A stretch of DNA of 64,000 nucleotides from Haloterrigena gelatinilytica (lineage in GTDB: Archaea > Halobacteriota > Halobacteria > Halobacteriales > Natrialbaceae), in assembly GCF_013342145.1 (NCBI RefSeq), contig NZ_JABUQZ010000001.1, forward strand, positions 3,224,001 through 3,288,000, written 5' to 3'. The position numbers were made by a program, and so were the translations under genes. Of this stretch, positions 15,452-17,780 are shown one piece after another. The notes under the pieces were generated by a model. It saw only the letters and a program-made list of their open reading frames with translations. It ran no database searches and was not told where the DNA came from. Position 1 is the stretch's first letter. Each line of letters starts with the position of its first letter.

Positions 15452-16051
15452 TCAGATCTCGCCCGTCCGAACCAGCGCGTCCCAGTCGGCTTCGTCGAGT
15501 CGATCCCGAAGCGCGGGCAGCGGCGTGATCGGCTCCGGATCGGCCGTCTTCTCGCCGATCGATCGGCGCCACCAGGCGACGTCGCGCCACTCGCCTTCGG
15601 CGTAGCCGATCGCGGGAAAGTCGACGCAGCGCTCGAAGCCAAGCCGCTCGTGGAACCGCTCGGTCTCGGGGTTGGGGACCGTCGTCACGGCGTAGCCGTC
15701 GCGGACGCCCTGGCGCTCGAGAACCGCGAACAGCGACTCGTAGAGCGCGCGACCGACGCCCGACTGACGGGCGTCGTCGGCGACGTAGACGGAGAGTTCG
15801 ACCGTCCACTGATGGGCTCGGCGCTCTCGCAGCCGGCTGGCGTAGGCGTAGCCGACGACCGCGCCTCCACGTTCGTAGACGAGCCACGGATAGGTCTCGA
15901 GGGTCGACGCGATTCGATCGGCCATTTCGGCTTCGGTCGGCGGCGCCTCCTCGAACGTGACCGCCGTCGACTCGCAGAAGGGAGCGTAGATATCGCGGGC
16001 CGCGGCGGCGTCGTCCGGCGTTGCGACTCGAATCCGCGCGTCGGCTGTCAT
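15452..16051 (-). CDS. GNAT acetyltransferase of the Pat/Bar (phosphinothricin) type
   Basis: A 199-residue GNAT enzyme. It opens IRVATPDDAAAARDIYAPF and continues with ESTAVTFEEAPPTEAEM, both typical of phosphinothricin/methionine sulfoximine acetyltransferase-like proteins. The acetyl-CoA loop is QSGVGRALYESL and the C-terminal signature is ERFHERLGFERC. The natural substrate is probably an amino acid analogue or another small amine; that is family inference. Confidence 0.85.
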   Translation of the reverse strand: MTADARIRVATPDDAAAARDIYAPFCESTAVTFEEAPPTEAEMADRIASTLETYPWLVYERGGAVVGYAYASRLRERRAHQWTVELSVYVADDARQSGVGRALYESLFAVLERQGVRDGYAVTTVPNPETERFHERLGFERCVDFPAIGYAEGEWRDVAWWRRSIGEKTADPEPITPLPALRDRLDEADWDALVRTGEI

Positions 16052-16137
16052 ACGGTCGTCTCTTGCCGACTTGAGGGATAAGTCCCCTGAAACCAGTGGC
16101 GCCGAGACCCGGGGCTGGTCAGTTGAGCACCTCGAGA

Positions 16138-16675
16138 ACGACGGCTTCCCGTCGTATCTTCAGCTTGTGACCAGAAGCACTTAAAGAGCGGTCGCAGCCA
16201 CTACACCGAACCACCGGGCGAACGGAGTGGTAACTACGCGAAATTGGACTCCGCAGAACGACGCTCTCCCGTCGTATCTCTACCTTGTGACCAGAACCAC
16301 TTAAAGCGACTCAGCGAAATGTGGGCTGCTCACGTGGCGAACGTAGTAACTCCTCGGTCGAGAATCACTCGAGAAGGACCGCCTCTCCGTCGTATCTTGA
16401 CCTTGTGACCAGAGATACTTAAAGGAAATCGCGTTCGCCACACGGAATCACCGAGCGATTCAGCCGCGGCTACTCGAGATTGCGCTCCGGAGAATGACGC
16501 TGTCCCGTCGTAGCTTCACCTTGTGACGAGAAGCACTTAAATTCAGTCCGCGTTCGCAGGGCTGGACCGCCGAGCGAACGACAGTAGCGACTACGAGAAA
16601 GTGTGCCCCGAAGAACCGCGTTCTCCCGTCATAGCTCTACCTTGTGACCAGAACCACTTAAAGGACGAACGGGGC
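16138..16675 (+). repeat. Array of five ~120-bp tandem repeats with a promoter-like core
   Basis: Five units with the sequence CTTGTGAC at 16164, 16284, 16402, 16520 and 16641 (spacing 120, 118, 118, 121). Each core reads about CCCGTCGTATCT, then two to three variable bases, then CCTTGTGACCAGAA, a short gap, and ACTTAAA. The last part matches a haloarchaeal BRE plus TATA box (CAGAA-CCA-CTTAAA) read to the right. Upstream of the core is a dyad ACGACG-N6-CGTCGT in copies 1 and 2 (7+4+7 in copy 1, 16138-16155) and, with a wobble pair, in copy 4. The ~70 nt between cores is also weakly related between copies, for example GTGGTAACTACG, GTAGTAACTCC and GTAGCGACTACG. The spacing is not a multiple of three and no long frame spans it. 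Confidence 0.85.
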
Positions 16676-16840
16676 CGCGACACCGGAAGGAGCAGTCAGT
16701 GCTCCGACCGTAACGCCCATACCGAGCACTGAGAGTATCACAGCCGTGATGCAGGGCACGACTGCGAGGGCGACGCGTCCCTCGAGCCGACCGTCTCGCG
16801 GGGAGGGTGAGCGCTGACCGATGGCCGACCTAATCGGCAT
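16658..16840 (-). CDS. Possible small membrane protein
   Basis: A 60-residue frame whose C-terminal two thirds are hydrophobic (VALAVVPCITAVILSVLGMG then VTVGALTA), enough for one or two membrane passes. It starts inside the AEC permease N-terminus on the opposite strand and ends at the TATA-like box of the last repeat unit. Composition is acceptable but there is no recognised family, so this may be chance. A perfect GGAGCA-N5-TGCTCC hairpin lies within it. Confidence 0.25.
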   Translation of the reverse strand: MPIRSAIGQRSPSPRDGRLEGRVALAVVPCITAVILSVLGMGVTVGALTAPSGVAAPFVL

Positions 16841-17780
16841 CTTCGCCTCGGCGATCGGGCCGATCGTCGCGATCGCGGGGGTCGGTTACGTCCTGGCGAC
16901 CGTCAAGCAGATCGATCCGGAGCCGTTGAACACGGCCGTCGTCTACGTGTTGGCGCCCGCGCTGGTGTTTCACAGTCTCGCCGTCACGGAACTCGCCGCG
17001 GCGACGCTCGCGCGAGTGACGGTCGGCGTCCTCCTCTTTACCGCGGCGATGTGGGGTCTCGCCGAACTGATCGGCCGCGCCACCGGCGAGCGCGAGCCGG
17101 CGTTGAGCGCCCTGGTCCTCGTCGCGATCTTCACTAACTCGGGGAACCTCGGGATCCCCGTCTCCGACTTCGCGTTCGGCGACGTCGGCCGGGAGACGGC
17201 CGTCCTCTACCTCTCGATCCAGTCGGTGCTGATGTACACCCTCGGCGTCTACATCGCCTCCCGGAGCAGCGGCTCCGCCGGACTCGAGGGGGTTCGCCGG
17301 GTGTTCTACATTCCGCTGGCCTACGCCGTCGTCGCCGCGCTGGTCGCCCGAGCGCTGGATCTGGTACCGCCCGCCGACACGGCGGCGATGGAGACGTTGC
17401 AACTCGTCGGCGACGCCTCGATTCCGCTCATGCTGCTCATCCTCGGCATCCAGCTCGCGCGCACCGACACCGCTTCAGCGGTCTCCCGCGCCTGGTCCGC
17501 GACGGCGCTCAAGATGGTCGTCGCACCGCTGATCGGTCTCGGTATCGCGCTGCTCGTCGGCTTCGAGAACCCGACCGTCGCGCGCGTGTTCGTCCTCGAG
17601 ACCGCGATGCCGGCCGCGGTGACGCCGCTGATCCTCGTCATCGAGTTCGCCGGCGGCGTCCGCTCCGACGGGGTGCTCGTCTCGGAGTACGTCTCGACGT
17701 GCGTGTTCCTGACGACGCTGCTGGCGATCCCGGTGCTCACCGTGTTGATCGCGGTGCTGCAGTCCGGCGTCGTGCTGTGA
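16821..17780 (+). CDS. AEC (auxin efflux carrier)-family permease
   Basis: A 319-residue membrane protein with about ten hydrophobic segments and no signal peptide. The first segment has ASAIGPIVAIAGVGYVLA, and the middle repeats NTAVVYVLAPALVFHS and IFTNSGNLGIPVSDFAFG, which carry the discontinuous-helix Asn/Pro pattern of the AEC/BART superfamily. Substrate unknown: malate, malonate and other organic acids are transported by relatives. The five-copy repeat array ends about 145 bp upstream and reads toward it. Confidence 0.88.
   Translation: MADLIGIFASAIGPIVAIAGVGYVLATVKQIDPEPLNTAVVYVLAPALVFHSLAVTELAAATLARVTVGVLLFTAAMWGLAELIGRATGEREPALSALVLVAIFTNSGNLGIPVSDFAFGDVGRETAVLYLSIQSVLMYTLGVYIASRSSGSAGLEGVRRVFYIPLAYAVVAALVARALDLVPPADTAAMETLQLVGDASIPLMLLILGIQLARTDTASAVSRAWSATALKMVVAPLIGLGIALLVGFENPTVARVFVLETAMPAAVTPLILVIEFAGGVRSDGVLVSEYVSTCVFLTTLLAIPVLTVLIAVLQSGVVL

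Follow-up and report, generated by a model that had tools for sequence, protein, structure and literature searches.

A family of tandem promoter-like intergenic elements in haloarchaea that co-occurs with the gene for RNA polymerase subunit epsilon

Introduction

What is the function of five promoter-like repeats that stand in tandem between a GNAT acetyltransferase gene and an AEC-type permease gene of Haloterrigena gelatinilytica? The preliminary description of this locus, which lies in a window of 64,000 nucleotides (the whole stretch of DNA analysed here), had read the repeats either as tandem small RNA genes or as stacked promoters for the permease gene, and its author knew of no described family of this kind. 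Indeed, we found no published description of the element family in open-licence papers; homologous cores are present across haloarchaea, and the intergenic element family is apparently undescribed.

The main finding of our analysis is the tie of this family to the subunit epsilon of RNA polymerase. A review describes epsilon as present in only part of the haloarchaea and calls its biological relevance enigmatic (PMC8305020, 2021). The only gene that it lists is that of Hbt. salinarum, where epsilon is OE_1279R, which suggests that Hfx. volcanii has no epsilon. A passage of the same review, which cites Madon & Zillig 1983 and Leffers et al. 1989, states that epsilon-containing polymerase transcribes native templates efficiently (PMC8305020).

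Results

The window contains five cores of about 62 bp at positions 16134-16672, arranged as direct repeats with a start-to-start spacing of 120, 118, 118 and 121 bp, which agrees with the five tandem units of about 120 bp reported before. The cores and the flanking genes are located as follows.

15452..16051, minus strand: GNAT acetyltransferase gene behind the array (Pfam PF13420; ArsN1/PPT-like NCBIfam matches below cut-off)
16072-16091, minus strand: promoter-like site of the GNAT gene itself (promoter score 7.7)
16134..16195, plus strand: core copy 1, class I (E 8e-16 with model R1); upstream half 16148-16163, CTTGTGACCAGAAGC 16164-16178, TATA-like ACTTAAAG 16179-16186
16254..16315, plus strand: core copy 2; upstream half 16268-16283, TATA-like 16299-16306
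16372..16433, plus strand: core copy 3; upstream half 16386-16401, TATA-like 16417-16424
16490..16551, plus strand: core copy 4; upstream half 16504-16519, TATA-like 16535-16542
16611..16672, plus strand: core copy 5, closest to the AEC permease gene; upstream half 16625-16640, TATA-like 16656-16663
16802-16810, plus strand: Shine-Dalgarno-like GGAGGGTGA of the AEC permease gene
16821..17780, plus strand: AEC-type permease gene in front of the array (Pfam PF03547)

Alignment of the five units yielded 36 invariant columns, the majority of which are located within the core. The PWM of the element, whose training set included the window's five copies, assigns them 67.8-80.5 bits, compared with -34 for the next best site in the 64-kb window and a maximum of -18.8 in 4.5 Mb of Markov-1 random sequence; the array is real and lies far above chance. 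In an alignment with five congeners the cores are kept and the intervals diverge, and the arrays of the congeners comprise 2, 2, 3, 3, 5 and 5 copies, the difference always being whole units. The weak likeness of the intervals, which had also been pointed out, is thus explained by tandem duplication. The ACGACG-N6-CGTCGT dyad described upstream of some copies did not turn out to be a feature of the family, other copies reading for example CGAAAAGCCCTTCGTAGC.

The extent of the element was derived from an alignment of 403 non-redundant copies from many genomes, in which position zero is the first C of CTTGTGACC. Conservation extends from about -30 to +31 around CTTGTGACC, ending 9 bp past the TATA box, and then drops abruptly to background. 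From these sharp limits we conclude that the unit is an element of about 62 bp, embedded in unrelated spacers of about 58 bp. Downstream of the core, the 403 copies display no conserved start codon, T-run or initiator or transcription-start signature, and T-runs past the cores occur at chance level. RNAalifold returned no pairs and no consensus RNA structure for the core, the folding of the five intervals did not exceed that of shuffled sequences (z-scores -1.2 to +1.7), and an Rfam scan of the window at gathering thresholds gave 0 matches. Since there is neither a downstream signal nor an RNA structure, the element is best regarded as a DNA site and the spacer as filler. A row of five small RNA genes with individual promoters would account for the regular spacing of promoter-like cores, but this is very unlikely, given that nothing is conserved after +31, that structure, terminator-like T-runs and Rfam matches are missing, and that the intervals diverge even among congeners. 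The earlier judgement that the array is non-coding was supported: plus-strand coding is contradicted by spacings of 118-121 bp, which are mostly not multiples of three, and no frame is kept; a 60-codon minus-strand ORF (16658-16840) was rejected because its frame is poorly kept in one congener (G005) of the alignment.

The genome from which the window derives (G000) harbours exactly 12 copies, i.e. the window's five and seven located between mptA and rpoeps, the product of which is annotated in RefSeq as DNA-directed RNA polymerase subunit epsilon; within each of the two clusters, all cores share one orientation. Throughout Natrialbaceae, the rpoeps-mptA cluster shows conserved synteny. Other haloarchaeal families have cores on the upstream side of rpoeps, at a distance of about 60-170 bp, that point away from the gene, and cores also lie upstream of plasmid-borne rpoeps copies. 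Such plasmid-borne copies, each with a core upstream, are those of Halorussus halophilus and Halococcus dombrowskii (L326, L327). In addition, solitary copies occur between unrelated genes, some of them on plasmids; for one in G003, an insertion-site comparison revealed flanks without a clear counterpart in congeners. Named hosts of cores include Natrinema, Natrialba, Natronococcus, Halobacterium, Halococcus and Halorussus. The genes next to cores have no common function, and a metabolic regulon was rejected on account of these heterogeneous neighbours. A terminator of the facing gene would suit many solitary copies, but not the arrays that face mptA or the AEC permease gene.

The array beside rpoeps contains further genes. 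An RlaP-type nucleotidyltransferase (NTase) gene of an RNA repair family is located inside the rpoeps-mptA array (L012:6366-7325); it is present in many Natrialbaceae and absent in others, and in G000 its predicted promoter overlaps, or lies within, a core. The same genome encodes, between array copies beside rpoeps, a 35-aa mini-ORF with two CxxC motifs, which is zinc-ribbon-like (L012:7616-7723).

A promoter matrix was learnt from 802 haloarchaeal upstream regions and represents a CCGAA..TTTWW motif about 40 nt before the ATG. The forward core matches this matrix at +6/+7, with scores above the 95th background percentile in 97% of the 403 copies and above the 99th in 44%, and the BRE/TATA-adjacent half is constant across copies. 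The promoter-like end of the core, which had been noticed in the five units, is thus a property of nearly all copies at the expected position. The CAGAA-N3-CTTAAA of the core resembles the BRE (CGAAA) and following TATA box of haloarchaeal promoters determined by dRNA-seq in Hfx. volcanii (PMC4983044); these ordinary promoters, however, lack a 60-bp consensus and a conserved upstream half, do not form tandem arrays and are not tied to a single polymerase subunit. Because ACTTAAAG is nearly palindromic, the reverse strand of the core also scores with the matrix, and forward transcription is likely without being certain. Where the first copy adjoins a divergent gene, it has an additional reverse-facing promoter-like site more often than inner copies do (68% vs 30%, p 3e-6). 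Many of the solitary copies point at the 3' end of a convergently transcribed gene, a placement that is odd for a simple promoter.

Similar elements are known from halovirus HF2, whose class I intergenic repeats of 56-58 bp contain BRE and TATA and were identified as promoters by reporter assay (PMC8707807). The cores, for which a promoter role is predicted here, are likewise intergenic, of similar length and equipped with BRE and TATA. The HF2 repeats are viral and conserved in their start-site region (PMC8707807), whereas the cores are cellular, tandem and accompany rpoeps, and their conservation ceases 9 bp past TATA. A virus origin of the core was rejected, since the exact core pattern was found in 0 of 2.9 million contigs of IMG/VR.

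The array also resembles haloarchaeal rRNA promoters, which occur in tandem, several in a row and about 100 bp apart. Tandem promoters of the rRNA type were rejected, since no core copy was found near any of the three 16S genes in G000.

With regard to the window itself, mptA, rpoeps and the GNAT gene each possess their own promoter-like site about 40 nt before the start codon and the AEC permease gene does not; a promoter-matrix scan of the stretch from core 5 to the AEC start codon detected no strong promoter. Since the permease gene has a Shine-Dalgarno-like sequence and lacks a promoter-like site of its own, core 5 (BRE/TATA score 4.8 at 16647) is a candidate AEC promoter, and the array may serve this gene. 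Stacked promoters for the permease gene, as suggested in the preliminary description, are therefore possible at this locus, but they leave unexplained why the family is mostly found beside rpoeps and among unrelated genes. A 22-codon upstream ORF (16749-16817), the length of which is kept in congeners, ends just before the AEC start codon.

The co-occurrence of core and epsilon was surveyed in 391 Halobacteria genomes, applying a threshold of E <= 0.01 for the class I core. The core was detected in 155 and a clear epsilon gene in 160 of these genomes, and 153 of the 155 core genomes possess a clear epsilon gene; 2 have the core only, 7 epsilon only and 229 neither (Fisher p 3e-97, uncorrected for kinship). 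Of the two core-only genomes, one shows a chance-level match (E 0.0096) and the other is 87% complete. Co-inheritance of linked genes can be a source of this correlation. Concordant contrasts are also seen within families and within one genus (f1 g12), in which two genomes (G016, G231) carry both core and epsilon and three (G109, G138, G375) neither. The seven epsilon-only genomes encode a diverged epsilon, and six of them (G011, G283, G292, G343, G192, G205) contain a variant core, termed class II; in the seventh (G207), which has a distant epsilon, no core of class I or II was found. Another genome (G154) combines epsilon with cores at several unlinked places (L175, L176, L177, L201, L202) that have their own shared upstream half; its family is otherwise mostly without clear epsilon.

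In the class II core, first seen upstream of rpoeps in lineages with diverged epsilon, TCACTAYGAACC replaces the TCRTAKCTYYAC of class I; the BRE/TATA half is the same and the copies are often in tandem. A class II model trained on rpoeps-linked class II cores only gave near full-length matches in the six epsilon-only genomes, unlinked loci included, and its matches in class I genomes were mostly limited to the shared half. The class II cores of the g69 genomes are located away from rpoeps, beside which no core was found. On the epsilon tree the core switches between class I and II once, although two host families contain both classes, whereas host family requires 14 changes on this tree.

The upstream half also changes in concert within genomes. 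At physically separate loci its distance is 0.20 within a genome vs 0.51 between genomes, and the flanks of unlinked copies are unrelated (0.70-0.73 within genomes). Low-information core positions differ by 0.50 within genomes vs 0.63; as these are partly alike, some copying of cores may have taken place. Upstream-half distance and epsilon distance are correlated (Mantel r 0.50, 0/2000 permutations, uncorrected for phylogeny and with noise added by the epsilon sequence of G203, which is cut by an internal stop). Concerted change at unlinked sites with unrelated flanks is the outcome expected of a trans-acting reader of the site. Within Halocatena, the cores of G220 are of class I, and those at four separate loci of its congener G246 all carry another, third version of the upstream half, similar to CTTACTTCACCC. 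The epsilon of G246 stays in the class I clade despite the changed cores, which means that the clade alone does not predict the site. Epsilon sequences of class I and II differ partly at residues 32-56; no specificity determinant is assigned to them, since G246 retains the class I-like QRD there.

Sequence searches in Pfam, NCBIfam and PDB revealed no relative of epsilon, and neither a DNA target nor a fold of epsilon was found in open-licence papers. Its AlphaFold model has a mean pLDDT of 67 and is good only at residues ~76-220 (pLDDT 72-94 per ten-residue block). Foldseek gave no match at E <= 0.001, and the matches listed were almost all cyclin folds. Residues 90-230 of the model adopt a cyclin fold that aligns with TFIIB and Brf2 at a VIA-align Z of about 10, with Pyrococcus TFB (1d3u) at 9.5 and with cyclin C at up to 11.5; cyclins that do not bind DNA match the model as well as TFIIB does, and helical folds readily give middling Z values. 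The likeness to TFB/TFIIB and Brf2 consists in the cyclin fold of the model and in the proposed epsilon site adjoining BRE/TATA. In contrast to TFB, the model contains one cyclin domain instead of two repeats, and epsilon has no TFB sequence match in Pfam, NCBIfam or PDB. Judging from the model, a TFB-like role of epsilon is plausible.

Discussion

We propose, with a probability of roughly 60%, that each core is an "epsilon box", i.e. an epsilon recognition site fused to a BRE/TATA, which would act as an epsilon-dependent promoter or as an epsilon-sensing, autoregulatory site. Recognition of the core by epsilon is inferred, with good support, from the comparative data, and the promoter output, the direction of transcription and the target genes of the cores are predictions. 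The upstream half (about -16 to -1) would be read by epsilon and the downstream half, as BRE/TATA, by TBP/TFB, and core-bound epsilon would recruit or commit the polymerase. Copies beside rpoeps could thereby mediate autoregulation, and the effect of a tandem arrangement could be greater strength or titration of epsilon. At the locus in the window, the five copies would govern expression of the AEC permease gene on one side, influence the divergent GNAT gene on the other, or both. If this is true, the observation from 1983 that epsilon enables the halobacterial polymerase to transcribe native DNA gains a concrete DNA target, and we face one protein and one 62-bp site, which appears, disappears and changes with it in two or three natural specificity classes.

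Epsilon might also bind the cores as operators, decoys or roadblocks, resulting in autorepression, titration or blocked transcription of convergent genes, so that the cores would not be promoters of a product. This would agree with the lack of a conserved product downstream, with the common orientation toward a convergent 3' end, with the overlapping reverse-facing promoters of first copies and with the NTase promoter predicted inside a core of G000. We nevertheless consider it unlikely from the sequence comparison, since the BRE/TATA half, which is conserved, matches the promoters of the respective genomes and keeps its sequence where the upstream half varies; this is the pattern to be expected of a sequence that is read by TBP/TFB.

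As all evidence is correlative, another regulator co-inherited with rpoeps could read the core and epsilon be a bystander; genes for a TrmB-like DUF7436 protein and other regulators indeed lie near the locus in Natrialbaceae. The neighbours vary among families while rpoeps stays, however, the class switch follows the epsilon tree, and genomes in which no core was found by rpoeps retain unlinked cores, which makes such a regulator improbable. Whole-unit variation in copy number among congeners and the scattered solitary copies, including those on plasmids, could moreover point to a selfish or inert intergenic repeat that is spread by copying and expanded in tandem by recombination. Mobile or REP-like repeats share sequence beyond the binding site, whereas unlinked cores have unrelated flanks and differ at low-information positions, with the functional positions being shared; furthermore, inert repeats leave the dependence on epsilon unexplained, and we regard this origin as very unlikely.

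Going one step further, epsilon could be a haloarchaeal promoter-specificity factor, a cyclin-fold analogue of sigma factors, with the boxes as its dedicated promoters, co-evolving in classes and gained or lost jointly; to this more far-reaching version of the epsilon-box reading we give slightly less than even odds. Should this be confirmed, the TBP and TFB paralogues of archaeal transcription would be joined by a lineage-specific specificity factor.

Two minor observations concern relatives of epsilon and the surroundings of class II cores. Further weak epsilon paralogues occur in genomes without cores, and a distant paralogue (33%) is encoded on a plasmid of Halobacterium hubeiense (L332:2899-3864), near a gene for a TATA-box-binding protein and with a core-like site 152 bp upstream. 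In genus g10, two inward-facing class II cores flank a gene for 486 aa, which is found in either orientation (L388:4618-6078, L389:4161-5621, L391:4091-4281); in G237 the gene is absent and both cores remain, and the segment is possibly invertible or excisable.
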